Assembly: GCA_947175605.1 (NCBI GenBank)
Contig: CAMWNH010000015.1
Location: 1-34,673 of the forward strand
Length of the DNA: 34,673 nucleotides
Reading direction: 5' to 3'
Origin: an uncultured Porphyromonadaceae bacterium
GTDB lineage: Bacteria; Bacteroidota; Bacteroidia; Bacteroidales; Muribaculaceae
Part shown: in pieces, positions 10,935 to 26,687 of the stretch
Position numbering within the stretch: the stretch's first letter is position 1
Layout: each line of letters starts with the position of its first letter
The notes under the pieces: model-generated
Database searches by the model: none
Told to the model about the DNA's origin: nothing
Seen by the model: only the letters and a program-made list of their open reading frames with translations
Position numbers and translations under genes: made by a program

Positions 10935-11816
10935 TCAGTTTTCTGTAAGATCTTTGGGGAGGACAGGCATCGCGCCGTTCTGCGTGCACACGAAAGCCGA
11001 GGTCTGCACGGCTTTAGCATGGGCTTCCTGTACGCTCTTGCCTTTGAGTATCGAGGCGATGAACGCTGCAGTGAAACTGTCGCCTGCGCCTACCGTATCG
11101 GCAACCTCCACCGTGGGAGTGGGCTGGAATGATACCGCTCCGGGCGTGAAGACATAGCTGCCATTTATACCGCATGTGAGTATCAGCATCTTAAGGTTGT
11201 ATTTGCCAAGCAGAATCCAGCACTTGTCCTGCAGGTCGATACCCGGATAGCCAAACATTCGGCTCACTGTCACGAGCTCTTCATCGTTGATCTTAAGAAT
11301 ATTGCAGCGCTCCATCGAATTGCAGAGAATTTCTTTTGTATAGAATCCCTGACGCAGGTTCACGTCGAACACGATAAGCTCCTCTCCCGTGTGAGGCATG
11401 GCATCGAGAAAGCGGTTGATCGTGTTGCGCGACACCACATTGCGCTGTGCAAGCGAACCGAAGCAAACGGCTTTAGTCTTGCCTGCGAGATCTTCGAGGC
11501 GTGCCGTATAGGGAATGTTGTCCCAGGCCACGTTCTCCTTGATGTCATACATGGGGATGCCGTCCGGATCCAGTTCCACCTGCACCGTTCCCGTGGGGTA
11601 GGGCACGGTTTCGATCAGCTGATTCAGACCCTTGGAGGTGAGATTCTCGATAATCTCCGCACCTAAAGCGTCGGGGCCTACGGCACTAACAACTACAGAA
11701 GGCAGTCCGAACTGCGATACGTGGTATGCGAAATTGGCGGGCGCACCACCGATTTTCTTTCCTTCGGGAAGGACGTCCCACAGGGCCTCGCCCATTCCTA
11801 CTACAATGTCAGTCAT
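10935..11816 (-). CDS. PfkB-family fructokinase
   Basis: Cytoplasmic sugar kinase of 293 residues, expected to phosphorylate fructose to fructose 6-phosphate. The N-terminal glycine-rich sugar site is GGAPANFAYHVSQFG (23-37), and the C-terminal signature is DTVGAGDSFTAAF (240-252) with D246 as catalytic base. Fructose as substrate is inferred from the neighbours: the gene is 12 bp downstream of an MFS sugar transporter and in one operon with a GH32 fructanase. This is the same logic as BT1757 in the B. thetaiotaomicron levan locus. A different hexose substrate cannot be excluded from sequence alone. Confidence 0.93.
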   Translation of the reverse strand: MTDIVVGMGEALWDVLPEGKKIGGAPANFAYHVSQFGLPSVVVSAVGPDALGAEIIENLTSKGLNQLIETVPYPTGTVQVELDPDGIPMYDIKENVAWDNIPYTARLEDLAGKTKAVCFGSLAQRNVVSRNTINRFLDAMPHTGEELIVFDVNLRQGFYTKEILCNSMERCNILKINDEELVTVSRMFGYPGIDLQDKCWILLGKYNLKMLILTCGINGSYVFTPGAVSFQPTPTVEVADTVGAGDSFTAAFIASILKGKSVQEAHAKAVQTSAFVCTQNGAMPVLPKDLTEN

Positions 11817-11828
11817 GATATTATTGTT

Positions 11829-13007
11829 TTAAGCGTTTTTGATTTTGAATGTATAGAATAGCAAATAGAGCACGCCTATGGTCATTACAGCCACGGCTCC
11901 GGCCACACCTACTGCATCTTGGGCGAAGCCCATGGCAAGCGGGAATACCGTGCCTCCGAAGAGTCCCATGATCATGAGACCCGATACTTCGTTCTTTTCG
12001 TCGGGCTGACGATTCAGTGCCTGCGCGAACACAACGGAGAAAATGTTGGAGTTGCCGAAGCCGATGCATGCTATGGAAGCGAGGATTATCGTCTGGCTTG
12101 TGCCGACAAACAGTCCCAACATGCCGAGCAGCATGCAGCATACACTGAAGGCGAAGAATGCTTTTGCCGGTAACTTGGCAAGAGCCCACGAGCCCAGGAG
12201 GCAGCCGCCGGTGCGGAAGTAGAAGTAGATCTGTGTGCCTATTACGGCTTCTTCTACGCTAAGCCCGAATCTTTCGGCAAGAATCTGGGGAGCGAAAGTG
12301 TTGGTGCCGACGTCAATACCCACATGACACATGATACCTATGAAGCATAGCAGAACGAACGGAATGCTTAGCAGCTTTACGCACTCCATGAAGCCCGTAA
12401 CCTTATCGGCGCGCTCCTCACGTATGGGAGTTGCACCGAGCATGGCAATGGACAGGATGCAGACAATTGCGAAAATCGGGAAGAGCACGCGCCAGCCAAG
12501 TCCGAATGTAGGAAGCAGGGCGGCAGCGCCCCATGCCATCATATAGGGAGCCAGAAGGGAGGCGAGAGCCTTTACGAACTGTCCGAATGTCAGCGTGGAT
12601 GCGAGTTTCGAAGGATTGATGAGACCGGACACCAGCGGGTTCAGCGAAGTCTGCATTACTGCATTGCCTATTCCAAGCAGGGAGAAGGCTGCAAGCATCG
12701 TATAATAGCCGGTGCCGAAGATTGGAATTATGAGGGATACGAGAGTGAGCAGCAGCGAAAGCAGAACGGTCTTTTTGCGTCCGATTTTGTTCATCAGCAT
12801 GCCTGTGGGCACGGAGAAAATCAGGAACCAGAAGAATACCAGCGAGGGAATAAAGCCTGCTTGTGCGGCGTTCAGACCAAGATCTTCCTTGACGAAATTC
12901 GTGGCCGAGCCTACAAGGTCCACGAAGCCCATGGCAAAGAAGCAGAGCATTACTGGGATGAATTGCAGCAGAGAATTCTTTTCTACTGCCTGTGTGTTGG
13001 ATGCCAT
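11829..13007 (-). CDS. MFS sugar transporter, probably fructose importer
   Basis: Inner-membrane major facilitator of 392 residues with about twelve hydrophobic segments. The loop-2/3 motif is present as GMLMNKIGRKK, and the protein resembles the FucP-like sugar:H+ symporter branch used by Bacteroidota PULs. It lies between the GH32 gene (29 bp upstream) and the fructokinase gene (12 bp downstream). It should move fructose released in the periplasm into the cytoplasm, the role of BT1758 in the B. thetaiotaomicron levan PUL. Family and direction of transport are well supported; fructose specificity is inferred from context. Confidence 0.88.
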   Translation of the reverse strand: MASNTQAVEKNSLLQFIPVMLCFFAMGFVDLVGSATNFVKEDLGLNAAQAGFIPSLVFFWFLIFSVPTGMLMNKIGRKKTVLLSLLLTLVSLIIPIFGTGYYTMLAAFSLLGIGNAVMQTSLNPLVSGLINPSKLASTLTFGQFVKALASLLAPYMMAWGAAALLPTFGLGWRVLFPIFAIVCILSIAMLGATPIREERADKVTGFMECVKLLSIPFVLLCFIGIMCHVGIDVGTNTFAPQILAERFGLSVEEAVIGTQIYFYFRTGGCLLGSWALAKLPAKAFFAFSVCCMLLGMLGLFVGTSQTIILASIACIGFGNSNIFSVVFAQALNRQPDEKNEVSGLMIMGLFGGTVFPLAMGFAQDAVGVAGAVAVMTIGVLYLLFYTFKIKNA

Positions 13008-13036: not shown

Positions 13037-14899
13037 TTAGTTATTCTTGATGTTGTATATGGTCAGGTTCTTGATTTCAGCAGAGCCTTTATCCGTACTT
13101 ACAAGTAGATTCGAATAAGGTTCATTGGGGAACACAAGATTCGTCATGGCAAAGCGGCCGTCCTTCTCGAAAACCTCGATGCTCGAGCGGTCCACGAATA
13201 TGCGTAATTCAAGGCTCTCCTTGCCTTCGTTGAAAGTCGGAGCTACGGTCACGGCCGGGAAATCCTGACTGAAGTCGGTTATACCGCTTTTCGTACGGTC
13301 GAAACTTAGCGTTCTCGCTGTCGGATCATAAGTCATGACAGCTGCTTCTCCGGCCTTATTTTCAAGAGTCAGCGTGACATTGCCCATAGCTTTTCCGGGC
13401 TTGATGGTCATCACGATCTCGCAGATTTCGGGAATAGCAACGCTCTTGCCCTTGGAGCCTGCGGACATGGATCCAATTTTCTTGAATATGCTGCCACGGA
13501 GGGCTTCAACCTCAGGCGACGGCGTGGACGACACATAAAGCTCGCCATCCATACCTTCAAAGAGGCCAATCTCACGGGGAAGAGAGTTCGCGCTGCGGAA
13601 CTGCATGGTGGGCACCTCGGGTGCATACTGCCAGTTGCTCATCCAGCCTATCACGGTGTTGCGCTTGTCGGGAGCATTGCTGAAGCTTACGGTTGCATAG
13701 TGGTCTTTTCCGAAGTCCATCCATTTCGTGGGCACATTGCCTTCTGAATCCGTATCGACTGTGAAGGTCTTGCCATCGAAGTCGCCCACGAAGTACTGTG
13801 TAGCGCTTCCGCCGAATATACCACCGGGATTGAGATTGCATATCAGCACCCATTTCTCTTTGTCCGTGCCATCGATCTTCACCTTCATAAGGTCGGGGCA
13901 TTCCCATACGCCGTCCTGTGCGCCAAGTCCTTTGCCGAAGGAGCTCTGGAGAGTCCAGGTCTTGAGGTCGGGTGAAGTCAGGATCAGCATTTCATGCTCA
14001 AGGGCATGAGCCAGAAGAAGCACCCATTGTTGGGTAGGCTCGTGCCAGAACATGTTCGGGTCGCGGGCTTCCGAGTCGAGAGTTATGACAGGATTTCCCG
14101 GATAAGGGTGTAAGGTCGTCCCGTTGTCCGTGCTCCATGCGAGGCTCTGCTGCTGCGTTGCAGCAGCTGCGGTGTAGAGTGCGATTACGGCGTCCTCTCC
14201 GAAGCCGGCAGTATTGTTCTTGTCCACAACACTGCTGCCGGAGAATATCATTCCCAATGCGTCAGGCTCCAGTGCGGCCTTAGTCTCGTGATTCCAGTTC
14301 ACGAGATCAGTCGATGTCGAGTGACCCCATGAAAGGTTCTGCCATTTCGAGCCGTAAGGATTCCACTGATAGTAAAGATGCCACACGCCGTCCTTGTAAA
14401 ACATGCCGTTGGGGTCGTTCATCCAGCCCCAAAGCGGAGTGTGGTGATATGCCGGACGGAATTTCTCCGTGTCGGTGCTTGTGAAATCATTGGCGAGTTC
14501 AAGAGCTTTCCAGCAAGCATCGTTCTGTATATCGCGGGTTGTCGAACGTCCCTGACGTGTTTCGACCGCAAGCACCAGTCCTTCATTATTGTAGCCGGAA
14601 AGATCGAGGGGTACCATGTAGTCCACCTTGTTTTTGGCAAGGCGTGCGTTCACCACCTTTTCGAGTTTGCCGTTTACGATAATTTCTATTCGGGCATCGT
14701 CTTGGCTCTCCTCGATGGGGAGGAGGAGATACTTGTCGTCCGATGCTACGCGGATCAGAGAATGGTTCGGAGATATGAACTCCACTTTCACACCGTTATT
14801 CTCTGTCGGTGCCGGCCCGGCCGCGATGACAGTTCCGGGGAAAGCCGATACTGCTCCAAAAAGTATCATGGCACTAAGGATTTTGCTTGTTTCAGTCAT
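13037..14899 (-). CDS. GH32 exo-fructanase with N-terminal DUF4980-like domain
   Basis: Periplasmic fructan hydrolase of 620 residues, expected to release fructose from the ends of levan or inulin oligosaccharides. It has a cleavable signal peptide (to about 27) without a lipobox cysteine. An N-terminal beta domain (about 35-125) resembles the DUF4980 module of Bacteroides exo-fructanases. The five-bladed GH32 propeller carries all three acidic residues: nucleophile D162 in WMNDPNG, stabiliser D280 in ARDPN, and acid/base E333 in WECPDL. A C-terminal beta-sandwich includes IFVDRSSIEVFEKDGR. It is the first gene of the minus-strand arm, divergent from the regulator. Levan or inulin preference cannot be read from the sequence. 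Confidence 0.94.
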   Translation of the reverse strand: MTETSKILSAMILFGAVSAFPGTVIAAGPAPTENNGVKVEFISPNHSLIRVASDDKYLLLPIEESQDDARIEIIVNGKLEKVVNARLAKNKVDYMVPLDLSGYNNEGLVLAVETRQGRSTTRDIQNDACWKALELANDFTSTDTEKFRPAYHHTPLWGWMNDPNGMFYKDGVWHLYYQWNPYGSKWQNLSWGHSTSTDLVNWNHETKAALEPDALGMIFSGSSVVDKNNTAGFGEDAVIALYTAAAATQQQSLAWSTDNGTTLHPYPGNPVITLDSEARDPNMFWHEPTQQWVLLLAHALEHEMLILTSPDLKTWTLQSSFGKGLGAQDGVWECPDLMKVKIDGTDKEKWVLICNLNPGGIFGGSATQYFVGDFDGKTFTVDTDSEGNVPTKWMDFGKDHYATVSFSNAPDKRNTVIGWMSNWQYAPEVPTMQFRSANSLPREIGLFEGMDGELYVSSTPSPEVEALRGSIFKKIGSMSAGSKGKSVAIPEICEIVMTIKPGKAMGNVTLTLENKAGEAAVMTYDPTARTLSFDRTKSGITDFSQDFPAVTVAPTFNEGKESLELRIFVDRSSIEVFEKDGRFAMTNLVFPNEPYSNLLVSTDKGSAEIKNLTIYNIKNN

Positions 14900-14954: not shown

Positions 14955-14962
14955 CAAAACTA
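14955..14962 (-). promoter_or_regulatory. -7 box of the GH32-MFS-fructokinase operon
   Basis: Minus strand reads TAGTTTTG (TAnnTTTG), 55 bp before the GH32 ATG. The nearest upstream TTTG is 24 bp away instead of about 19, which fits a promoter that needs an activator. Confidence 0.6.
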
Positions 14963-14972
14963 ATACATAATA

Positions 14973-14999
14973 CGCACAATACCTATCAAATTTTGTGCG
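14973..14999. repeat. Inverted repeat CGCACAA-N13-TTGTGCG, candidate operator
   Basis: Perfect 7-bp arms at 14973-14979 and 14993-14999. They lie just upstream of the -7 box of the GH32 operon and include its candidate -33 region. It could bind a dimeric regulator; which one is unknown. Confidence 0.4.
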
Positions 15000-15007
15000 C
15001 CGGATGA

Positions 15008-15019
15008 AAAAAATCGTGC
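15008..15019 (-). promoter_or_regulatory. Candidate regulator site upstream of the GH32 operon
   Basis: Minus strand reads GCACGATTTTTT, 45 bp upstream of the -7 box at 14955-14962. A 10-of-12 match occurs at 17878-17889, also exactly 45 bp upstream of the susC -7 box. Binding by the hybrid regulator is inference. Confidence 0.45.
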
Positions 15020-15049
15020 ATAGCCCCCTTTTTTATATTCCATTCACGC

Positions 15050-15079
15050 TTTGTTATATCGTAAAATTCTATAACTTTG
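15050..15079 (+). promoter_or_regulatory. Promoter of the hybrid two-component regulator gene
   Basis: TTTG at 15050-15053, an 18-bp spacer and TAACTTTG at 15072-15079 give a near-perfect Bacteroidota promoter. The predicted transcript starts within about 15 bp of the ATG at 15099. Its standard spacing suggests steady expression of the regulator. Confidence 0.75.
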
Positions 15080-15098
15080 TGTTCGTAATGCAGAAACC

Positions 15099-17825
15099 AT
15101 GAAAAAATATCTATTCCTGATTTTCATATCGCTCTTGTCCTTTTCTTGTTCGAAGGAAAAGCCCTATCGTATTGCTGTCTCCCAGCCGAGTCAGGACGAT
15201 TGGCGCGCCAAGATGAATGCCGAGATACTGCGGGAGATCATTCTTCACGATGATGTCGAAGTCGAAATTCGTTCGGCGGATGATAGCAATGAAAAGCAGA
15301 TTGCGGACATACGCGATTTTGCAGCCCGTGGCTTCGATATTATAATTGTATCGCCCAACGAAGCGGCGGCGCTTACGCCTGTTATTGATGAAGTGTATGC
15401 ATCCGGAATCCCTGTCATAATTTTCGATCGCAACATCCTTTCCGAAAGCTACACTGCACGATTCGGCGCCGATGACGAGGGCCTTGGCCGCAGTGCGGCC
15501 GACTTTGCATCGCATATCCTTCCACGTGGAGCAAAGGCAATAGAAATCTACGGACGCATCGGCTCAACTCCGGCCGAAGGGCGTCATGATGGCTTTGCCG
15601 GCGCGTTTTCCAAGGCCGGAGGCAATCTTCTGGCCTCCGCCACAGGCAATTGGAATAAAGATGAGGCCGCACGGGTGGCCGATTCCCTCCTTAAGATATA
15701 TCCGGATGTAGATCTGATATATGCCCACAACGACCGTATGGCCATCGGAGCGTCCGAGGTCGCACGACGCATGGGGCTCGATAGTGTGCGCGTTATAGGT
15801 ATCGATGCTGCGCCCGGCATAGGCATTAATGCCGTTGCCGACGGTACGCTTGACGCTACATTCCTATATCCGACGGAAGGAGATATAATCGTGCGGACAG
15901 CGCTTGCTATTCTTAAAGGTGAGCCATACGACCGCGAGACCGTCTTCCCGCTGAGTTCCGCTGTAGATCGGACCAATGCCGATATACTTCTCCGTCAGAA
16001 TGAGGCACTTGCGCGAGAGACGGAAAAGATGTCGCGTCTCAAGAGTAAAATTGATGTTTACTGGGCCCGTTATTCCACACAGACCACCTTGTTTTATTCC
16101 AGCATCGTCATTATTCTCCTTCTCATTGCCGTGACGTTCCTGCTTCTGAAAGCGTTCTGGCAGCGCGATAAACATCGTAAGGAGCTTCTTGCCCGTAACG
16201 TTCTGCTGCAGGAGGAGCGCGATAAGCAGGAAATGCTGAACCGTCAGCTCGAAGAGGCGACTCAATCGAAGCTCATTTTCTTTACAAACGTATCCCACGA
16301 CCTGCGCACGCCTCTCACGCTTATAGCCGAACCTGTCAGCCGGCTTTGCGCGGCCTCGAATCTTACACCCACCCAGGAGCGGCTCGTGCGCATAGCGGAT
16401 AAGAATGTGAAGATCCTGCGCAGACTCATCAATCAGATCCTCGATTTCCGAAAATACGAGAATGGCAAGCTCGAACTCAATATCGCTGAAGTGGACTTCT
16501 CGCGAGCTGTTGAAGACTGGGTTGAGAGCTTTGTGGCCACGGCGAGGGCCAAGGATATATCGCTAAATCTCGAGGGACCCGGGCAGCCCGTTGTGCAGGC
16601 ACTCGATGCCGAGAAGATAGAGCGTGTGTTCTTCAATCTTCTTTCCAATGCAATTAAGTACACCCCCCGCAACGGGGCGATTACAATAAGATATGGTGTG
16701 GACGGTGATGTCCTGCGTTTTTCGGTGATTGATACGGGCGAGGGCATAAGCGAGCGTGATATTCCCAATATTTTCGACCGTTTCTATCAGGTGGACCGTC
16801 TCCACCCCAAGGGTTCGGGCATAGGACTTTCTCTTGCCAAGGCCTTTGTGGAGTTGCATGGCGGAGAGATAAAGGTAGAGAGCACTCCCGGAAAAGGCTC
16901 TGTCTTCACTGTTGAGATTCCTATACGCCATGTCGGGGATTGCTCGGCTCCGCTTGTCCCCGAGGCGCAGATTACTTCTGACGAGATAGAGTCCGAACTT
17001 GGCAGTATCAGTGGCGAAGGCGTTTTCAATCAGGAGAAGCCCTTGCTCCTTGTTATTGACGACAATGCTGACATCCGCAGCCTTATCACGGACATCATGA
17101 GCGATGATTATAATGTCATCTTGGCATCCAACGGTATGGAAGGAGTGGGCATGGCCGTGAAGTATGTGCCTGACCTCGTCATATGCGATGTGATGATGCC
17201 TGTGCTCGACGGATTCGAATGCTGTCGCAGGATAAAGTCAGAAGTTTCCACGAGCCATATTCCGGTCGTCTTGCTCACGGCCTGTTCTCTTGACGAGCAG
17301 CGTGTACAGGGCTATGAGAGTGGGGCCGACGGCTATGTTTCCAAACCTTTCAGTTCGGATGTTCTCAAGGCCCGCTGCGCTTCCATGCTCGAGAATCGGA
17401 AGCGTATCCTCAATCTTGTTGGAAACGGCGACTCGGAGCTGCAGGCATCGTCGGCTGCCGATCCCAAAAAAGCGGTCGAAGCCGCAGGCGCCGGAATCGA
17501 GGATGAGTTTTACAAGAAATTCCTTGAAATATTCTATTCCGAGATGGCGAGCTCGCAACTTAGTGTCGACATGCTTGCTTCGCGTATGGGACTCGAACGT
17601 TCGCAGTTCTATCGCAAGATAAAAGCCCTCACGAACTATTCGCCCGTCGAGCTGATCCGACACCTTCGCCTCAAGGAGGCAAGGAAAATGCTGTTGACAT
17701 CCGATCGCACTGTCAGCGAAGTGGGCTATGCCGTCGGGTTTTCCACTCCGGCCTACTTCACTAAGTGCTATCATGAAGCTTTTGGGGAAACTCCCTCTGA
17801 TACACGCGAGCGACTCGGCCGATAG
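15099..17825 (+). CDS. Hybrid two-component system regulator with periplasmic sugar-binding sensor
   Basis: Single-protein signalling system of 908 residues in the inner membrane. Domains in order: signal/anchor (1-17), periplasmic-binding-protein type-1 sugar sensor (about 22-300, with AHNDRMAIGA and VIGIDAAPG), membrane helix (about 332-351), HisKA with H400 in VSHDLRTP, ATPase domain with N514/N517, DTGEG (545-549) and GSGIGL (572-577), receiver domain with phospho-acceptor D697 in ICDVMMP and K749, and a C-terminal AraC-type DNA-binding domain (about 805-908). This architecture, rather than the more common beta-propeller sensor, is that of BT1754, which binds fructose. Fructose is therefore the likely inducer. 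It sits between the two arms it probably controls. Confidence 0.95.
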   Translation: MKKYLFLIFISLLSFSCSKEKPYRIAVSQPSQDDWRAKMNAEILREIILHDDVEVEIRSADDSNEKQIADIRDFAARGFDIIIVSPNEAAALTPVIDEVYASGIPVIIFDRNILSESYTARFGADDEGLGRSAADFASHILPRGAKAIEIYGRIGSTPAEGRHDGFAGAFSKAGGNLLASATGNWNKDEAARVADSLLKIYPDVDLIYAHNDRMAIGASEVARRMGLDSVRVIGIDAAPGIGINAVADGTLDATFLYPTEGDIIVRTALAILKGEPYDRETVFPLSSAVDRTNADILLRQNEALARETEKMSRLKSKIDVYWARYSTQTTLFYSSIVIILLLIAVTFLLLKAFWQRDKHRKELLARNVLLQEERDKQEMLNRQLEEATQSKLIFFTNVSHDLRTPLTLIAEPVSRLCAASNLTPTQERLVRIADKNVKILRRLINQILDFRKYENGKLELNIAEVDFSRAVEDWVESFVATARAKDISLNLEGPGQPVVQALDAEKIERVFFNLLSNAIKYTPRNGAITIRYGVDGDVLRFSVIDTGEGISERDIPNIFDRFYQVDRLHPKGSGIGLSLAKAFVELHGGEIKVESTPGKGSVFTVEIPIRHVGDCSAPLVPEAQITSDEIESELGSISGEGVFNQEKPLLLVIDDNADIRSLITDIMSDDYNVILASNGMEGVGMAVKYVPDLVICDVMMPVLDGFECCRRIKSEVSTSHIPVVLLTACSLDEQRVQGYESGADGYVSKPFSSDVLKARCASMLENRKRILNLVGNGDSELQASSAADPKKAVEAAGAGIEDEFYKKFLEIFYSEMASSQLSVDMLASRMGLERSQFYRKIKALTNYSPVELIRHLRLKEARKMLLTSDRTVSEVGYAVGFSTPAYFTKCYHEAFGETPSDTRERLGR

Positions 17826-17847
17826 TTTTCCGGGGAAATAGCATTTT

Positions 17848-17904
17848 TGTTGCAGGAGATATTACAAACAGTGTTTCGCACGGTTTCTTATCTCTCCTGC
17901 AACA
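17848..17904 (+). repeat. 12-bp inverted repeat between the regulator gene and susC
   Basis: TGTTGCAGGAGA (17848-17859) and TCTCCTGCAACA (17893-17904) are perfect complements separated by 33 nt. Shorter complementary pieces lie inside (AAAC with GTTT, GTG with CAC). It starts 23 bp past the regulator stop codon, so it may be its terminator, or an operator for susC. Confidence 0.55.
17878..17889 (+). promoter_or_regulatory. Candidate regulator site upstream of susC
   Basis: GCACGGTTTCTT, 45 bp upstream of the susC -7 box. It matches the motif upstream of the divergent GH32 operon at 10 of 12 positions and the same distance. Function is inferred. Confidence 0.45.
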
Positions 17905-17934
17905 TTTGTTATTATCTGATACATGTGGTCTTAT

Positions 17935-17942
17935 TAATTTTG
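17935..17942 (+). promoter_or_regulatory. -7 box of the susC operon
   Basis: TAATTTTG (TAnnTTTG), 40 bp before the susC ATG. The closest TTTG upstream (17905-17908) is 26 bp away, well over the usual spacing, as expected for an activator-dependent PUL promoter. Confidence 0.6.
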
Positions 17943-17982: not shown

Positions 17983-20900
17983 ATGAAAAGACCAATCCTC
18001 AGTGCAGTGCTGATGTTTCTGATGGCAGTTATCATGCAGGCCCAGAACATCAACGTCCATGGCACAGTGATGGCCAAGACCGACGACGAGCCCCTGATCG
18101 GCGCATCGGTCGTGTGCGACAATCCGAAAGCCGCAGCCGTTACTGACATCGACGGTAATTTTGAAATCAATGTCCCGGCCGGCGCATCCTTGCGTTTTTC
18201 CTATATAGGATACCGCGAGACAATCGTTTCGGCTCATGAAGGCCACATGGTCGTCTATCTTGAAGAAGACTCCGAACTCCTCGACGATGTGGTGGTCATC
18301 GGTTATCAGACAGTCCGCAAGGCCGACCTCACCGGCGCTGTTTCTGTGATGGATCTCAAGGACCCTCTTAGCGAAAATTCGGGCAACATCATGAACTCCT
18401 TGTCCGGTAAGCTCCCCGGCGTGCTCGTTATTCCTGACGCAGCTCCCGGTGGCACCGGTTCGATTCGTGTGCGCGGTATGTCGACTGCCAATTCCAGCAA
18501 CGACCCCCTCTACATTATCGACGGTGTGCCCACTGATAACATCAATATGATCAACCCCGCCGATATAGAGACGATGCAGGTCCTCAAGGATGCAGCTTCC
18601 GCATCCATCTATGGTTCGCGTGCGGCCAACGGTGTTGTCATCATCACTACTAAACAAGGCAAGGGCGACCGTATGACAATCAACATCAACTACGCAGCTT
18701 CCGCCCAGACCATTGCCAAGCGCTACAATATGCTCAACGCCGAGCAGTGGGGCGAGGCTTATTGGGCTGCATCGCGCAATTCCCACATTGCGCCCTCTCA
18801 TGTCCTCTACGGCTCCGGCGAGACTCCCGTGCTTCAGCAGTATGTTGCCGGCGATCCCAACTTCCCCACAACCGAAACCGACTGGCAGGATCTCGTCTAC
18901 CACACGGCTTGGACCAACAACCTCACGGCTTCGATTTCCAACAGCTCCGATAAGGGCTCTGTAATGTTCTCGCTCAACTATATCAATCAGAACGGTAACA
19001 TACAGAAGACCTACTACGAACGTTATTCGGCCCGCATCAATTCGCACTACAACTTCAACAAGTACATTGCCGTAGGCGAAAACCTGCAAGTGGCTCGCTG
19101 GAGCAACCGCGGTATGGATGTTGCCGGCGACCGTGGTATACCTTTCCTCGCGATGAGCCAGCTTACGGCCCTCCCTGTCAAGGGCTTGAACGGCGATTGG
19201 ATGCGTCCTCTTAGCCTCGTAAGCTCCGACCTTCAGAATCCCGTGCAGATGATTGAAAATGCTGCCGACAACTCCTCGCAGAGCTGGAGAATCCTCGGCA
19301 ATGCCTATCTGCAGGTGACGCCTGTCGAAGGCCTGACGGTCAAAACCAATATCGGTATCGAGCATAGCCAGTATTTCAACAACACGCTCGGCCGTGCCAC
19401 CAACCCCGGCGATGTCAACTCCTTCTCCAGTGCGTTCGGCAACGGCGATCAGTGGACCTGGACTAATACAGCTAACTACAACCGCACCTTCGCCGACAAG
19501 CATCATCTCACCGTCCTGCTCGGCACCGAGGCTATCGGCTATACATTCCGCGACCTCAGCGCATCGCGCGAAGGCTATGCATTCGAAGACGAGGAATACA
19601 TGCAGATAGGTTCCGGCACAGGCACCCGAAACAATGGCGGCGGCAAGACGCAGTGGAGTGTATTCTCCCTTTTCGGCAAGGTCGATTATAACTATGCCGA
19701 CCGCTACCTCGCATCCTTCACCATCCGTCGTGACGAGAACTCACGTTTCGCCAAAGGGCATCGTGCGGGCGTCTTCCCCGCTTTCTCGCTGGCATGGCGT
19801 CCCTCGCAGGAATCCTTCTTCCCGAAGAACAACGTGCTCACCGACCTTAAGGTACGCTACTCGTGGGGTCAGAACGGTAATGCCAACATCCCGCCCCTGT
19901 ATCCCGCATACTCCACATATCGCTTCAATACGGGAAATGGTGCTTACGACCTCTCCGGCACCAACTCCTCTACTACATCGGGTATCACTCTTGCCTCCAC
20001 CGGCAATCCCGACCTGAAGTGGGAGACGACCTATCAGAACAATATCGGTCTCGACATGCAGTTCTTTGGCGGCGCACTCAACCTCACGGCTGATTACTTC
20101 ATCAAGAAGACCAAGGACATGCTCACCAATCCCCCGGCCCTCGACGTTGCAGGTGAAGAGGCCACAATGTGGCTCAACACGGGCGATATGAAAAACACCG
20201 GTTGGGAAATCTCGCTGGCATACATCAGCCCCATCTATGGCGATTTCTCCTGGAACGCATCTGTCAACCTCTCTCAATACAAGAACAAGCTCATCACGCT
20301 CAATTCCCGCCAGAAATTCATCGGTGGTGATCAGCGCCTCATCCCCGGACAGCCTATGGGTGTGTATTACGGCTACGTTTGCGACGGCATTTTCAACTCC
20401 GACATCGAAGTTGCCAATCATGCCATACAGCAGGGTGCCGCTCCCGGCCGACTCATCTTCCGTGACCTTGACGGCAACGGCGTGATCAACGATGACGACC
20501 GCTGTATCATCGGCGACCCGAATCCCGATCTCACTATGGGCATCAACCTCGGTTTCAAGTACCGTGCGTTCACCCTCGACATGTTCTTCTCCGGCGACTT
20601 CGGCTTCGATATCCAGAACCACATGAAGCGTCAGCTCTACTTCATGGACTATGGCAACATCTCCACCAATCGCGGTGCTGATATCCTCAACGCATGGCGT
20701 CCCGACAATTTGACATCCGACATTCCTGCTCTCTCGCTTACCGACGATAACAACGAGCGTCGCTTCTCGACCTACTTCATTGAGAACGGTTCATATATGA
20801 AGATGAAATATCTTAAGCTCTCATACACCGTGCCTGCCAAGGTAATCCGCAAGATCGGTGCAACCAACCTCGATGTTTACGGTCAGGTGGAGAATGTCTT

Positions 20901-21024
20901 CACAGCCACCAAATACAAAGGTCTCGATCCCGAGATTCTCCCCGGCGAGTTCGGCGCACGTATCGACAATGGCGCATACCCCCGTCCTCGCACATTTACG
21001 ATCGGCCTTAACCTTCAGTTCTAA
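17983..21024 (+). CDS. susC: SusC-like TonB-dependent fructan oligosaccharide transporter
   Basis: Outer-membrane importer of 1013 residues. It has a signal peptide (to about 20), a carboxypeptidase-regulatory-like domain (about 24-95), a probable TonB-interacting stretch DDVVVIGY (101-108), a plug domain (about 112-225, with LYIIDGVPTDNI and ASIYGSRAANGVVIITTK) and a 22-strand barrel ending in the terminal phenylalanine of GLNLQF. It forms a lidded transporter with the SusD protein encoded 21 bp downstream, taking up fructan oligosaccharides with energy from TonB. Substrate is inferred from the GH32 genes and the fructokinase in the locus. The gene uses many C-ending codons, in line with high expression. 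Confidence 0.95.
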   Translation: MKRPILSAVLMFLMAVIMQAQNINVHGTVMAKTDDEPLIGASVVCDNPKAAAVTDIDGNFEINVPAGASLRFSYIGYRETIVSAHEGHMVVYLEEDSELLDDVVVIGYQTVRKADLTGAVSVMDLKDPLSENSGNIMNSLSGKLPGVLVIPDAAPGGTGSIRVRGMSTANSSNDPLYIIDGVPTDNINMINPADIETMQVLKDAASASIYGSRAANGVVIITTKQGKGDRMTININYAASAQTIAKRYNMLNAEQWGEAYWAASRNSHIAPSHVLYGSGETPVLQQYVAGDPNFPTTETDWQDLVYHTAWTNNLTASISNSSDKGSVMFSLNYINQNGNIQKTYYERYSARINSHYNFNKYIAVGENLQVARWSNRGMDVAGDRGIPFLAMSQLTALPVKGLNGDWMRPLSLVSSDLQNPVQMIENAADNSSQSWRILGNAYLQVTPVEGLTVKTNIGIEHSQYFNNTLGRATNPGDVNSFSSAFGNGDQWTWTNTANYNRTFADKHHLTVLLGTEAIGYTFRDLSASREGYAFEDEEYMQIGSGTGTRNNGGGKTQWSVFSLFGKVDYNYADRYLASFTIRRDENSRFAKGHRAGVFPAFSLAWRPSQESFFPKNNVLTDLKVRYSWGQNGNANIPPLYPAYSTYRFNTGNGAYDLSGTNSSTTSGITLASTGNPDLKWETTYQNNIGLDMQFFGGALNLTADYFIKKTKDMLTNPPALDVAGEEATMWLNTGDMKNTGWEISLAYISPIYGDFSWNASVNLSQYKNKLITLNSRQKFIGGDQRLIPGQPMGVYYGYVCDGIFNSDIEVANHAIQQGAAPGRLIFRDLDGNGVINDDDRCIIGDPNPDLTMGINLGFKYRAFTLDMFFSGDFGFDIQNHMKRQLYFMDYGNISTNRGADILNAWRPDNLTSDIPALSLTDDNNERRFSTYFIENGSYMKMKYLKLSYTVPAKVIRKIGATNLDVYGQVENVFTATKYKGLDPEILPGEFGARIDNGAYPRPRTFTIGLNLQF

Positions 21025-21045
21025 TCCATTTCAAAGACATTGACG

Positions 21046-22722
21046 ATGAAAACCATCAAATCCATCATATGCAAGAGTGTAGGCGTTCTCGCCGTTGCTA
21101 CACTCGGCCTTGCGTCCGCCTCTTGCAACGACCTCCTCGACACTAAGCCGCAGGGCGTCTTCACCGACGAGCAGATTGGCTCCGACGAGGCCACAGATCT
21201 CATGACGGCTGCTTACGCAACCCTCCTGAACCACTACTTCGGAAACAACGAGTCCTTCGCCGGACCCATCAACAACTGGGTTTTCGACCTTCGCTCCGAT
21301 GACGCCCTCAAGGGTGGCGATGGCGTAACGATGGAAGGATACATGCACCAGCTCGAAGTGGGCAACGTCCAGAGCGACAATGATATCGCAAACTTCAAGT
21401 GGCGCAACAACTTCTTCTCCATCAGCCGCTGCAATACCGCTATCAAGGCCATCCTCGCCTCCGACAAGCTTTCCGAAAGCGAGCGGGCTTCTTTCGCGGC
21501 CGAGATGCGAACGCTCCGTGCATACTACTATTTCGATATGTACCGTATCTTCGCCAAGTTCCCTTACTTCGACGAGACGGTCGCCAATCCCAGCGAGTGC
21601 CGTGCCGACCAGTACAGCCGTGAAGAAATCGTATCCTTCATCAAGGGCGATCTCCGTGACGCATATGAAACGCTGCCTCCCGTGCAGGAGCAGGTTGGTC
21701 GCCTCAACAAATATGTCGCTGCTGCCATCCTCGCAAAGGTGGACCTCTTCACATCCGACTGGGCTGAAGCCGAGAAGTACGCAGGCTACGTAATTGATTC
21801 GCATAAGTACGAGCTCTATCCCAACTTCCTGGACATGTCCAAGCCCGAGTTCAACAACATGTACGAAAGCGTATTCGCCGTGCAGTTCTCCTCCGCTAAC
21901 TCTCCCGACCAGTACAACTTCAACAACTGTCTCAACTGCACCTGGAGCGAAGGCAACCTCTACGGCAACGGCGATGATTTCTATCTTGCCTCCCAGAATC
22001 TCGTCAATGCGTTCCGCACCGATGAGAATGGCCTTCCCTTCCTCGATGGTTCCTTCAACAGCGAGAATGTCGAGAGCGCTGATTATCCCGGCAACGTCGA
22101 TCCCCGTCTCGACTTCACACTCGGTCGTATCGGAATGCCCTGGCGCTCGCACACCTACAATGAAAAGTGGGTTCGCAATATGGAGCTCTACGGTCAGTAT
22201 TCCGGCAAGAAGCCTTATCCCGCTCCCGAATCGCCTTACGTGAAGCCCGGTATCGTGCCCTGGGGTGCTTCCTCGCTCAACTACATCATCATCCGTTATG
22301 CCGACGTAATGCTCATGAAGGCTGAAGCCCTTATCGAGCAGAATAAGGATCTCGATCAGGCTCGCACGCTCATCAACGAAATCCGTAGCCGTGCATACCG
22401 TTCCGTTGATGCAGCTTACACGCCCGTCGACTGCAACCCCATGATCGCCACCTACGCTGTCGGCGAATATCCCGCCACGGGATGGTCGCAGGAATATGCC
22501 CGCCGCGCAGTCCGCATGGAACGCCGTATCGAGCTCGCAATGGAAGGACACCGCTGGTTCGACCTCGTACGATGGGGTACGGCCGTTGAAACTGTGAATG
22601 CTTATTACGCATCGGAAAGCAAGATCCACACCTATTATCAGGGTGCGAATCTCACTGCCGACGAAATATATCTGCCTATCCCCGTAAATCAGGTCGACAA
22701 TGCAGGCGACCTCTACAAGTAA
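21046..22722 (+). CDS. susD: SusD-like surface glycan-binding lipoprotein
   Basis: Outer-membrane lipoprotein of 558 residues that closes over the SusC barrel and captures the glycan. The signal peptide ends with a lipobox-like ASASC, lipidated at C27, followed by NDLLDTKPQ, typical of SusD. The N-terminal TPR-like helical region and the C-terminal RagB/SusD region (with YADVMLMKAEALIE and RRIELAMEGHRWFDLVRWG) are intact. An in-frame TTG two codons upstream is less likely as start than the ATG at 21046. It is translated 21 bp after susC. Confidence 0.95.
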   Translation: MKTIKSIICKSVGVLAVATLGLASASCNDLLDTKPQGVFTDEQIGSDEATDLMTAAYATLLNHYFGNNESFAGPINNWVFDLRSDDALKGGDGVTMEGYMHQLEVGNVQSDNDIANFKWRNNFFSISRCNTAIKAILASDKLSESERASFAAEMRTLRAYYYFDMYRIFAKFPYFDETVANPSECRADQYSREEIVSFIKGDLRDAYETLPPVQEQVGRLNKYVAAAILAKVDLFTSDWAEAEKYAGYVIDSHKYELYPNFLDMSKPEFNNMYESVFAVQFSSANSPDQYNFNNCLNCTWSEGNLYGNGDDFYLASQNLVNAFRTDENGLPFLDGSFNSENVESADYPGNVDPRLDFTLGRIGMPWRSHTYNEKWVRNMELYGQYSGKKPYPAPESPYVKPGIVPWGASSLNYIIIRYADVMLMKAEALIEQNKDLDQARTLINEIRSRAYRSVDAAYTPVDCNPMIATYAVGEYPATGWSQEYARRAVRMERRIELAMEGHRWFDLVRWGTAVETVNAYYASESKIHTYYQGANLTADEIYLPIPVNQVDNAGDLYK

Positions 22723-22746: not shown

Positions 22747-24210
22747 ATGAAGAAAAATATAATTTGGAGCATCGGGCTTCTTACCTCGCTCCTGATGATG
22801 CTCTTTAGCACCGCTTGCTCGGATTTTGAGCCGAAGGATCTTCCCGAGGTTCCCGAACTGACTCCGGTAAGCAACCTCCAAGCCAATATCGAAGGCTTCA
22901 ACGTTGTCCTGTCCTGGACTCTCCCGCAGGGCCGCATCACCGGTGTTAGAATCACCAAGGAGGGCAACAACTATGCGCCTATCAACCTCGAGGGGCCCGC
23001 AACAAGCTATGTTGTCGAGGGTGCACCCATGAACGAAGAGCAGTTCTATACCGTCAAGGTCATTTACGAAGGCGATTACATCAGCGAGGGCGTGTCCGTA
23101 ACGGCAACCCTTCCCGAAGTTGCCCGTCCGGCTGCTTCGAATCTCACCTCTTCCATTGAGGGCCGTACAGTCACTCTCAGCTGGACTCTTCCCACCGGTC
23201 CCAACATCACGGGTGTCCGTGTCCTTCGCGATGGCGAGCCTGTTGCAGAGCTTCAGGGTGCCGCAACAAGCTACGAACTCAAGGGGCAGCCCATGGATCG
23301 TGAGATGGCCTATGGTGTAGAGGTGGTTTATGCAAACTACTACTTCTCCGAGCCCGTCACCATCAAGACCACGGTTCCCTACATCACTCCGAAGATGGCA
23401 TACCTCCTTCTTGCACCTTCCGTTTCCGAACTCCCCGACGACGATGAACGCGCAGCCGCCTCGTGGTTCGTGGCACAGGATAATGCCGAGCTTATCACTC
23501 CTTCGCAGATTGCCGATCTCGACGCCGACCTCTATCCCGTAATCTGGATTGAAATCGATCGCGTGGGCCTGCCCATGGGTTGGGAAAATCTCCCCGTTGA
23601 GGTCGCTAACCCCACGACCATCGCAGATCTTCGCGAGTACACCGCACGCGGCGGCAATTTCTTCCTCGCCAACATGGCCACGCAGCTTACCGTGCCCCTC
23701 GGTTTCGTACCCGACAACATGGCTCCCACTGTATTCGGTAATGGTGAAGGTGGTTCCGGTGATGATGTATGGGTGCTCAACGCTTATCTCGGCTGGGATT
23801 TCCGAAATGGTTCAGACCAGGGTTTCTACGACCGTACGGCCCACGAAATCTATAAGGACCTCACCTTTTCCGACCCCAACGGTTATGGCTATGACAACCT
23901 TCCCCTCATCGGTCCCGGTCAGCGCGAAGATCACAACTGCCTCTGGGATTGTAATCTCTACGGCCGTGGAAATCAGCCCGACGTGATCCGTAATTTCGAA
24001 GTCACCACCAACTCCCTTGTTCTTGCCACATGGGGCCATGTCCGCGACCACTGCGTTGCAGGTATCGTTGCCTTCAACTCCAATGCCGAGCATGGACGTT
24101 GCGTAGCTGTCGGCCTCGCCGCTTACGAATGGAATCAGAATTCGGGCGTGAACCCCTATCAGCATAACATTGAACAACTGACTCTTAACATCCTCGATTA
24201 CCTCAAGTGA
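22747..24210 (+). CDS. DUF4960-type surface glycan-binding lipoprotein
   Basis: Lipoprotein of 487 residues with a lipobox at LFSTAC (C24). Two tandem FN3-like repeats follow (about 42-121 and 131-209), sharing SNL, IEG, LSWTLP, ITGVR and ATSY at equivalent positions, so they arose by duplication. The C-terminal half (about 215-487) is a DUF4960 domain. Its position right after susD and its domain order match BT1761, the levan-binding surface protein of the B. thetaiotaomicron levan locus, so it probably binds fructan outside the cell and feeds SusCD. The sugar preference of this version is not visible. Confidence 0.88.
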   Translation: MKKNIIWSIGLLTSLLMMLFSTACSDFEPKDLPEVPELTPVSNLQANIEGFNVVLSWTLPQGRITGVRITKEGNNYAPINLEGPATSYVVEGAPMNEEQFYTVKVIYEGDYISEGVSVTATLPEVARPAASNLTSSIEGRTVTLSWTLPTGPNITGVRVLRDGEPVAELQGAATSYELKGQPMDREMAYGVEVVYANYYFSEPVTIKTTVPYITPKMAYLLLAPSVSELPDDDERAAASWFVAQDNAELITPSQIADLDADLYPVIWIEIDRVGLPMGWENLPVEVANPTTIADLREYTARGGNFFLANMATQLTVPLGFVPDNMAPTVFGNGEGGSGDDVWVLNAYLGWDFRNGSDQGFYDRTAHEIYKDLTFSDPNGYGYDNLPLIGPGQREDHNCLWDCNLYGRGNQPDVIRNFEVTTNSLVLATWGHVRDHCVAGIVAFNSNAEHGRCVAVGLAAYEWNQNSGVNPYQHNIEQLTLNILDYLK

Positions 24211-24261
24211 TCAGAGACGTACCAGGAACCTTCGTCAAGGTATATTAAATTGTTTTGACTC

Positions 24262-24293
24262 CGGCTGCGGGGCCTATAAGGGCGCCGCAGCCG
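24262..24293 (+). promoter_or_regulatory. Strong intergenic hairpin ahead of the second GH32 gene
   Basis: CGGCTGCGG (24262-24270) pairs with CCGCAGCCG (24285-24293). After a G/G mismatch GCC pairs with GGC around a 6-nt loop. It is followed by ATTTCC, not a real T-run. It may weaken read-through or stabilise the upstream mRNA. Confidence 0.5.
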
Positions 24294-24311
24294 ATTTCCA
24301 CCTTTCGCACC

Positions 24312-26687
24312 ATGAAAAAAACTTCCCTTCCTCTTCTTCTTGCTGCCCTGAGCCCGAGCTTCGGCGCGAACGCAGGAATCGTTGCAAACTTTCCTATGGA
24401 TGTCCGCGACGGAAAAATAACCGAGACCGTCAGCGGGGATCGTTTCGATGTTCTCGGCCATTTTGCGCCCGAGAATCTACCCGGTGCAGTCGGACAGGCC
24501 CTGCGCTTCGATGGCTACACATCATGGATCGATGCACGCATCGGAGACATCATTCCCGCAGGCTCCCGACAGATGACGGTTGCCATGTGGGTTGCGCTCC
24601 CGTCATACCCCATTATCAAAATAGATGACCCCACCACGGAGAAGACTGCAATAGCGACGTGTACGGATGACACTGCCCGCACGGGCTTTGGCTTCTATAT
24701 TGGATTCGACGGCAAGTGGTGCTTCCGCACATATGTCGGAGGCTGGGCCGTGGAAGTGCCGGTCGATGCTCCGCTCCCCACATATCAGTGGAATTATCTC
24801 GCTGCAGTGGTCGATGCCGATGCCAAGACCATAACCCTCTACAATAATGGCGAGCCCGTCGCTTCAACTCGCTGCAACGGCACTGTCAGCGTGGCTGCCT
24901 CTCCATTCACTATAGGGCGGGGACCTCTCGAAAACTATTCGGGCCCCTTCCTCCTCTCGAGCTTCAACGGACTTATCGACGATATTACGATCTGGAACGA
25001 AGCTCTCCCCGCCGCATCTCTCGCATCCGCTCGTCCCGAAAATCTTGCCGACCTCGATATTCCGAAGTCCCGTTTCGAGAATGACATCCTGCGTCCTCGC
25101 TTCCATGGTATGCCCGCAGCTGCATGGACCAACGAATGCCACGGCATGGCCTATGCCGACGGGCGCTATCATCTCTTCTTCCAGAAAAATGCCGATGGCC
25201 CTTACATGGCACGACTGCATTGGGGACACATTTCCAGCGAGAATCTCTACGATTGGCGCGAAGAAAAGATTGCGCTTGCACCCGGCACGCCATACGACAT
25301 AAAGGGATGCTGGAGCGGATGCGTCTTTTCCGATCCGGTGATTACAGGCGGGATGCCCAATATCATTTATACTGCCGTAGATTATGCTAAAGCCACGATA
25401 GCGCAGGCATATCCCGACGATGAGTCTCTGCTGAACTGGACCAAGAAAGCCGGGAATCCGATTATCGGCCCTCGTCCGTCAACGCTCACCGATGACTTCC
25501 GCGACCCCTACTTCTTCCGGAATGGCAATGACGCATATATCATTGTCGGAAGCTCCAAGGGTGGGGTAGGAGCTACTTCGCTCCATAAATATAACCCGGC
25601 AACAGCCATGTGGATCAATGATGGTGCGCTCTTCTTCACAGGAGCGAACGCCGCCGTCGACGGAAACTTCTGGGAAATGCCCTCGATCACACGGATGAGC
25701 GATGGCAAGTGGCTCTTCACGGCAACCCCGCTGTCCACCTCTGCAGGAACAAAAACGATATATTGGACGGGCTCGATTGGAGCGGATGGTAAGTTTGTTC
25801 CCGATGCAGCGTCCGCGCAGCCGCGCGATGTCGAGCTTGTGGCCCGTGCCGGATTCGGTCTCCTTTCGCCCACGGTGTTCCCTCACGAAGGCAAGACTAT
25901 CGTTCTCGGCATAGTGCCCGATAAGCTTGGTGCACAGGAAAACTGGAATCTCGGTTGGGCTCATTGCTATTCTCTGCCGCGCGAATGGTCTCTCGGAGCC
26001 GATGGCGCTCTCGTGCAGAAACCCTTCGAAGGCCTGAAAGGCTTGCGCACCTCCACGGCTTTCTCCCGTTCGGCCTTTGCCCTTGACGGTACTTTGCCTC
26101 TTGGCCCTGTTGAAGGTCGCGAAGTGGAGCTCTCGGCGGTATTCACGCTTGCGAATTCTCCGGTTGGTTTCAATTTCTTCAAGAACGCAAACGGCGAAGC
26201 CTCGCTTCGCTATGATCCGACTCGCGGAACTCTTACCATCGATTTCTCCTCCGTCCATCGCCTCGTGAATGACGGCGGCGTGTTCAATGGCGTTTATTCC
26301 TGCTCTCTTCCCGAGACTCTGCGCGCAGGCTCGACTCTGAAGCTCAATGTTTTCATTGATCACTCCATTATCGACGTCTTCGTAAACGATCGTTGGGCCA
26401 CGTCCGTGCGTATTTTTGCCACGGATGCCGACGCTTCCGGCGTGGAAGCATATGCCGGTGGAGCCACACAGGTGCAGTCTCTGGACGCATGGGTGCTCTC
26501 TCCAGGCGAAGGTCAGGGGAGCGGTGTCGGACAGGTTTGTGTCTCATCGGAGAATGAAGCCCCTTTCGTCGATGTCTATAATATTTCAGGGGCGTGTGTG
26601 CGGCGAAATGCACCTCGTGCAAATGCCGTCGACGGTCTCGCCCCCGGAGTGTATTTTGTAGGAAGCAGAAAAATGATGGTTCGCTGA
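24312..26687 (+). CDS. Divergent GH32 protein with N-terminal LamG-like domain
   Basis: From the ATG at 24312 the protein has 791 residues: signal peptide (to about 21, no lipobox), LamG/concanavalin-like domain (about 22-240), GH32 propeller (about 262-560), GH32 beta-sandwich (about 600-730, with FIDHSIIDVFVNDRWATS), and a short C-terminal tail (about 750-791) like a secretion-sorting domain. In the catalytic core, stabiliser D398 (FRDPY) and acid/base E455 (WEMPS) are kept. However, the nucleophile motif WMNDPNG reads W-T-N-E275-C-H-G, and the usual C after the acid/base is M456. It is therefore either a GH32 with changed activity or a non-hydrolytic binder. It is probably co-transcribed from susC, after a 101-bp gap containing a hairpin. 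Confidence 0.88.
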   Translation: MKKTSLPLLLAALSPSFGANAGIVANFPMDVRDGKITETVSGDRFDVLGHFAPENLPGAVGQALRFDGYTSWIDARIGDIIPAGSRQMTVAMWVALPSYPIIKIDDPTTEKTAIATCTDDTARTGFGFYIGFDGKWCFRTYVGGWAVEVPVDAPLPTYQWNYLAAVVDADAKTITLYNNGEPVASTRCNGTVSVAASPFTIGRGPLENYSGPFLLSSFNGLIDDITIWNEALPAASLASARPENLADLDIPKSRFENDILRPRFHGMPAAAWTNECHGMAYADGRYHLFFQKNADGPYMARLHWGHISSENLYDWREEKIALAPGTPYDIKGCWSGCVFSDPVITGGMPNIIYTAVDYAKATIAQAYPDDESLLNWTKKAGNPIIGPRPSTLTDDFRDPYFFRNGNDAYIIVGSSKGGVGATSLHKYNPATAMWINDGALFFTGANAAVDGNFWEMPSITRMSDGKWLFTATPLSTSAGTKTIYWTGSIGADGKFVPDAASAQPRDVELVARAGFGLLSPTVFPHEGKTIVLGIVPDKLGAQENWNLGWAHCYSLPREWSLGADGALVQKPFEGLKGLRTSTAFSRSAFALDGTLPLGPVEGREVELSAVFTLANSPVGFNFFKNANGEASLRYDPTRGTLTIDFSSVHRLVNDGGVFNGVYSCSLPETLRAGSTLKLNVFIDHSIIDVFVNDRWATSVRIFATDADASGVEAYAGGATQVQSLDAWVLSPGEGQGSGVGQVCVSSENEAPFVDVYNISGACVRRNAPRANAVDGLAPGVYFVGSRKMMVR

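Follow-up and report, generated by a model that had tools for sequence, protein, structure and literature searches.

What do the two promoters on either side of a fructan regulator gene have in common, and does the regulator bind it? The window analysed here is a stretch of 34,673 nucleotides from an uncultured Porphyromonadaceae bacterium (Muribaculaceae in GTDB), the entire contig CAMWNH010000015.1 of a 2.24-Mb draft genome (GCA_947175605.1). It carries a polysaccharide utilization locus (PUL) in which a hybrid two-component system (HTCS) regulator is encoded between an operon for a GH32 enzyme (GH32A), an MFS transporter and a fructokinase on one side and susC on the other. A first-pass annotation had pointed to a 12-mer shared by the two PUL promoters as a candidate binding site for the AraC-type domain of the regulator. 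Our comparison of related loci indicates that each PUL promoter very probably carries an operator of about 77 bp, composed of four half-sites, for this BT1754-type fructose-sensing HTCS.

Results

In the window, the letters and positions given by the first-pass annotation are exact. The 12-mers GCACGATTTTTT (15019-15008, minus strand) and GCACGGTTTCTT (17878-17889, plus strand) are identical at 10 of 12 positions, and 45 bp separate each of them from a TAnnTTTG box (TAGTTTTG at 14955-14962, minus strand, and TAATTTTG at 17935-17942, plus strand). The likeness over a longer stretch, 19 of 29 positions, was also borne out on recounting. Among 4000 pairs of dinucleotide shuffles of the two 100-bp regions, 0.3% contained a 12-mer at the same offset with at least 10 matches. 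By our own arithmetic this amounts to a chance of about 5% after allowing for about 15 promoter pairs, and the window alone is therefore no proof of a motif.

The regulator has relatives in 32 of 49 genomes from the genus (E ≤ 1e-100), in 103 of 225 genomes from the family (E ≤ 1e-180) and, among the best 80 matches in named records, at 79 loci. The regions upstream of GH32A (U, 78) and of susC (S, 84) were reduced to 67 and 69, the window included, after removal of duplicates. For profile building, five U and seven S rows scoring ≤15 bits in leave-one-out were removed. The window and its 88% relative (L009) were both excluded from training, and the model was built from 110 of the 121 rows that then remained; the other 11, several of them close to retained rows, were omitted by hand. 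Neither operator of the window is identical to any training row.

The element recovered from these regions is dyad symmetric and about 77 bp long. It contains four 16-bp half-sites (TGCAnnATTTTTnATA), of which L2 and L1 point leftward and R1 and R2 rightward, with 21 bp (two helix turns) within each pair. In order, the consensus reads TATnAAAAATnGTGCA (L2), TATnAAAAATnGTGCA (L1), one base, TGCAnCATTTTTnATA (R1) and TGCAAnATTTTTTATA (R2). Expectation-maximization (EM) carried out separately on U and S recovers the same long element, with a dyad correlation r of 0.68 (U) and 0.67 (S) and a best direct period of 21 bp in each profile. With random starts and without use of the −7 box, the best of 12 EM runs reached the same sites in all 67 U rows and in 67 of the 69 S rows (S at one constant offset). 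Its mean score was 59.8 bits for U and 58.0 for S, compared with 36-58 for the poorer runs and 10-14 for shuffled sets, 12 each for U and S. Finally, a half-site profile made from R2 of one set gave its four top mean scores in the other set exactly at L2 and L1 on the minus strand and R1 and R2 on the plus strand.

This anatomy changes how the original 12-mer is to be read. In relatives, the gap between this motif and the TAnnTTTG box is mostly either 24/25 or 45/46 bp. The two values reflect a true repeat unit of 21 bp, of which the proximal copy gives the better match in many species. The 12-mer is genuine sequence but only part of one among four half-sites; likewise, the 45-bp spacing is correct but is composed of 24 bp to the proximal half-site plus one 21-bp period. 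We rejected a single 12-bp site at 45 bp, as the motif recurs at two gaps in relatives and belongs to a longer element of four half-sites. The parts beyond the 12-mer are the proximal copy R2, to which the supposedly displaced TTTG belongs, and the inverted copies L1 and L2.

In the window, the operator of the GH32A-MFS-fructokinase operon lies at 14983-15059 (minus strand) and scores 34.6 bits with the R1 model (E = 3.9e-8 in the whole genome); a position weight matrix (PWM) trained on relatives only also points to it. Its half-sites are the proximal R2, CGCACAAAATTTGATA (14984-14999, minus); R1, TGCACGATTTTTTTCA (15005-15020, minus), which includes the 12-mer at 15008-15019; and the inverted L1, AGCCCCCTTTTTTATA (15022-15037, plus), and L2, TTCACGCTTTGTTATA (15043-15058, plus). 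With the S-set half-site profile, L2, R1, R2 and L1 are the top four matches of this region. The susC operator lies at 17838-17914 (plus strand; 26.3 bits with the R1 model, E = 1.5e-5 in the whole genome) and is likewise picked out by the PWM. Its half-sites are L2 at 17839-17854 (TGCAACAAAAATGCTA, minus), L1 at 17860-17875 (AACACTGTTTGTAATA, minus), R1 at 17877-17892 (CGCACGGTTTCTTATC, plus, including the 12-mer at 17878-17889) and the proximal R2 at 17898-17913 (TGCAACATTTGTTATT, plus); among the half-site profile matches of the region L1, R1 and R2 hold ranks 1 to 3 and L2 rank 6. Profiles built from U or from S after exclusion of the window and L009 each had all of their eight best window positions within 14960-15082 or 17836-17916. 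In the whole genome, the model made without the window found only these two operators at E < 0.01 (better strand).

The next place in the genome has E = 0.02. This third-best match (C39:12965-13045; 1501-1581 in L169) is a weak operator-like dyad between TolC-like and TPR-like genes (frames read by eye), before the TolC-like gene, and is probably a chance match.

The operator keeps a fixed distance to the PUL promoter. Among the 67 U regions, 66 have the −7 box 24 or 25 bp after the R2 12-mer, as do 67 of the 69 S regions, and both window boxes keep this spacing. The first-pass annotation had further read the PUL promoters as what one expects of activator-dependent ones, their closest TTTG standing 24-26 bp from the −7 box and four other promoters of the window having the standard gap. 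On recounting, the PUL gaps are 24 and 26 bp, and the window has five matches to TTTG-(17-21)-TAnnTTTG, the regulator's included, with gaps of 18-20. In relatives, a TTTG at 17-21 bp is absent from all PUL promoters (0 of 66 U and 0 of 68 S), but it is also present in only 1 of 62 promoters of the regulator gene. The contrast is therefore peculiar to the window and not general, and the lack of a −33 box says little here about dependence on an activator.

The U operator also stands at a conserved distance from the divergent promoter of the regulator gene. In 62 of the 67 U regions, the window included, the −7 box of that promoter (TAACTTTG, 15072-15079, plus strand) and L2 are separated by 11-16 bp (13 bp in 46 regions and 16 bp in a single one). 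This is nearer than the PUL boxes by about one helical turn, so that L2 covers the −33 region of the regulator promoter. In the window this arrangement occupies 15043-15079. The operator thus probably affects the regulator's own expression, and the conserved distance suggests autoregulation, either lowering or raising. These findings, together with published HTCS motifs that consist of two direct repeats (PMC3878776), would also fit an arrangement in which function at the PUL promoters is confined to R1 and R2, L1 and L2 being leftovers of a duplication or serving the regulator promoter only. We consider this unlikely. On the susC side L1 and L2 are conserved though no leftward −7 box is conserved in the S profile of 69 regions, and the inverted pair is therefore not solely for the regulator promoter.

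A potential hairpin lies just past the regulator stop codon, where L2 and R2, as outer arms of the susC operator, make up a long inverted repeat (17842-17905). The dyad begins 13 bp past the stop codon and its outer arms, TTGCAGGAGATA and TATCTCTCCTGCAA, could pair, so that one might see in it a transcription terminator for the regulator gene and regard the resemblance to the GH32A element as incidental. No terminator-like site was called there by a scan limited to loops of 3-8 bases, which is therefore blind to a long-loop hairpin at this place. We rejected the terminator, which seems to us hardly credible, on the argument from the GH32A side, where the same dyad stands although no gene ends; U and S share one profile.

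Across the family, the operator was found in 112 of 225 genomes. At thresholds of E 1e-180 for the regulator and 1e-4 for the operator, 92 genomes have both, 11 the regulator only, 20 the operator only and 102 neither (Fisher p = 3e-30, a value not to be taken literally because the table includes related genomes and genomes that supplied training sequences). Operators that are at most 71% identical to any training row still match at the independent loci L137, L138, L139 and L190 (E = 1.2e-7) and in the seven genomes of genus g24 that we opened. Four further loci (L136, L188, L189 and L191) are training loci under other names, and matches there are not independent. In genus g72, where four loci with divergent susC and GH32 were compared, three have tandem half-sites (for example TGAATCATATTTAATA) that recur after 21-22 bp; two of the three, L230 and L231, are close relatives. 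Near other HTCS genes (24 sources, of which L238 and L240 overlap, 190 kb), the best match reached only E = 0.034. The loci of a second HTCS family (that of the L238 protein) were used solely as a negative control; this family was also taken as a control for the generality of four-half-site dyads, and its 16 matches in the 225 genomes were diverged and too few for a profile. Related loci thus uphold the motif and its spacing through a fixed −7 distance, co-occurrence with the regulator and the lack of a good match near other HTCS genes. Conserved spacing, co-occurrence and specificity together support the motif as a candidate site for binding by the AraC-type domain of this HTCS.

Most of the 20 genomes with the operator only have some form of the regulator. 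Sixteen belong to genus g24 and encode a shortened ortholog, and one (G160) has a broken ortholog; in G121 only the kinase-to-HTH part was matched (37%), and no ortholog was found in G112 or G132. In G160 (L179, C11:764500-770500) the ortholog consists of two short frames without the middle part and operators still stand on both sides. Three other genomes (G012:C36, G020:C341 and G041:C104) carry the fructan HTCS twice, side by side, and some of these copies are incomplete or contain a stop.

Five operator matches away from a full-length regulator, picked by hand, all lie before susC or GH32(A) homologs. At L182 (G134), L181 (G016), L183 (G115) and L176 (G178), an operator precedes a susC homolog, with the regulator gene far away or on a different contig. 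From such positions, the regulon of the fructan HTCS may be wider than one locus.

The same distribution bears on a rival assignment, to a different regulator shared by sugar operons, for example the Crp-like protein BT4338. In Bacteroides, a palindrome located upstream of such operons has been proposed for BT4338 (wwwTATGTTnTAnAACATAwww; PMC3878776), and the window operator is also dyad symmetric. Yet the core of this palindrome, TATGTTnTAnAACATA, has no match at either operator with up to three mismatches, and on this ground we rejected the Crp-like palindrome. Moreover, a global site would be expected at many operons, whereas only the two fructan promoters match below E 0.02, and the operator tracks the HTCS gene across genomes. 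Another regulator of this kind thus appears highly improbable.

The regulator orthologs of genus g24 are open frames of 731-761 amino acids in 16 genomes and match the window regulator only over residues of about 4-467 and 622-905. In the six orthologs scanned against Pfam (L173:1875-4067, L174:1812-4037, L175:1828-4005, L177:1895-4090, L184:1879-4092 and L185:1768-3993), no HATPase_c domain was detected, and HisKA, receiver and AraC HTH were retained; the match pattern indicates the same loss in all 16 genomes. Alignment places the gap at the ATPase part and shows that the phospho-acceptor histidine and the receiver aspartates are retained. Without HATPase_c these proteins cannot phosphorylate themselves in the usual way. 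In all seven g24 genomes that we opened, the susC operator is intact. No account of an HTCS without the ATPase domain was found in a literature search covering few subscription journals.

The genes around the operators agree with a fructan PUL. According to Pfam, the regulator (15099-17825, plus strand) combines Peripla_BP_4, HisKA, HATPase_c, receiver and AraC-type HTH domains, that is, the BT1754-type (HTCS_Fru) architecture of a periplasmic-binding-protein sensor, kinase, receiver and AraC HTH in a single protein. On one side lie, on the minus strand, GH32A (13037-14899), the MFS transporter (11829-13007) and a PfkB-family sugar kinase, the fructokinase (10935-11816). On the other side are, on the plus strand, the SusC-like receptor (17983-21024), a SusD-like protein (21040-22722), a DUF4960/fn3 protein in SusE-like position (22747-24210) and a second GH32 with Laminin_G_3 (24255-26687). 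The regulator is thus grouped with GH32, SusC/D, MFS and fructokinase genes, as for BT1754-type fructose HTCSs, and both operators, before GH32A and susC, are upstream of genes from the PUL that encodes the HTCS itself.

Discussion

Several observations weigh against the assignment of the 77-bp element to the fructan HTCS, or against its regularity. Of the 136 regions collected, 12 (five of the 67 U and seven of the 69 S) score at or below 15 bits in leave-one-out, and the half-sites of the window are imperfect, the susC-side L2 being the weakest of its four and ranking sixth in its region. In random-start EM, the U period correlation (r 0.54 at 21 bp) is only just above the highest value among 12 shuffles (0.52, at a period of 31 bp), and the U dyad correlation of 0.73 has to be set against shuffles of up to 0.49; S is clearer, at 0.69 versus 0.31 for the dyad and 0.46 versus 0.31 for the period. 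As the U period correlation alone is not above shuffles, the sharper evidence for the repeat is the half-site position test. The co-occurrence table includes genomes that supplied training sequences, and 11 regulator-positive genomes have no operator match at E ≤ 1e-4, 10 of these with regulators of at most 51% identity. Farther away, 8 of 31 Bacteroidaceae sources matched at E < 0.01, three of them identical to training loci, and a set of 39 more distant sources gave matches at E ≤ 0.05 in 8, including one duplicate of a training locus; many of the Bacteroidaceae and distant stretches searched end short of a susC promoter. The promoter of BT1754 itself is unresponsive to fructose (PMC3404733), in a locus where the gene order differs.

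AraC-type domains bind about 16-17 bp each, and as dimers they occupy direct repeats that lie on the same DNA face. In E. coli, the I1-I2 sites of AraC are direct repeats 21 bp apart beside the polymerase site; the operator described here shares this arrangement and differs in its adjoining inverted second pair, and the two regulators differ in sensor and chemistry. Closer to the present case, HTCS motifs in Bacteroides are direct repeats that average 21 bp (Ravcheev et al. 2013; PMC3878776), and a direct repeat with centres about 21 bp apart is what we found in both U and S. The HTCS_Fru regulon of BT1754 and the other predicted HTCS motifs described there resemble ours in the AraC-type HTCS with a sugar-binding-protein sensor, in the direct repeats upstream of PUL operons and in the inclusion of an inner-membrane transporter and a cytoplasmic kinase. 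They differ in that every motif there is a two-site direct repeat, whereas here, in another family, two direct repeats stand back to back in a 77-bp dyad, two of the four half-sites are inverted and the half-sites begin with TGCA. The tandem 21-bp repeat is therefore the known HTCS pattern, and the back-to-back dyad of four half-sites is not described in the literature that we compared. A search covering few subscription journals found no account of an HTCS with inverted plus direct repeats, and only unrelated work on AraC with four half-sites.

Experiments on other HTCSs are compatible with the proposed assignment. BT1754 is required for induction of its own PUL, and chromatin immunoprecipitation sequencing of BT1754 has its top region in the 3′ part of the BT1754 gene (PMC3404733), the counterpart of the position of the susC operator here. 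Receiver-AraC fragments of the BT4124 and BT4663 HTCSs bind susC promoters in gel shift under the control of phosphorylation (PMC11253607). Those proteins act on other substrates; their S/CHIP motif is retained in the window regulator as SHIP.

Taken together with the anatomy of the operator, a sequence of events can be proposed. Fructose or a fructan product would bind the periplasmic domain of the HTCS, whose kinase would then phosphorylate the receiver. The AraC domains of a phosphorylated HTCS dimer would occupy R1-R2, on one DNA face beside the polymerase site, and activate susC and the GH32-MFS-fructokinase operon. A second dimer would probably sit on L1-L2, back to back with the first, and through L2 before GH32A the regulator promoter would probably be affected as well. 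A fuller version, reasoned from sequence comparison, is that two back-to-back HTCS dimers on the dyad set divergent promoters, with PUL activation at one helical phase and the regulator's own gene one turn closer, and that this logic persists in one genus with an ATPase-less receptor, where signalling would proceed without a kinase in cis. We put this forward tentatively and regard it as possible rather than probable.

From a biological perspective, HTCS proteins control many of the diet-responsive gene sets of gut Bacteroidota, and the geometry of their operators has mostly been predicted from few genomes. The kinase-less orthologs of g24 represent a natural experiment on signalling by HTCS receptors. 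For a dominant gut family, the present analysis defines an operator with its half-site, a fixed distance to the −7 box and an inverted second pair that a two-site model leaves unexplained. Defined in this way, the operator offers precise targets for footprinting experiments, for engineering promoters and for predicting regulons.

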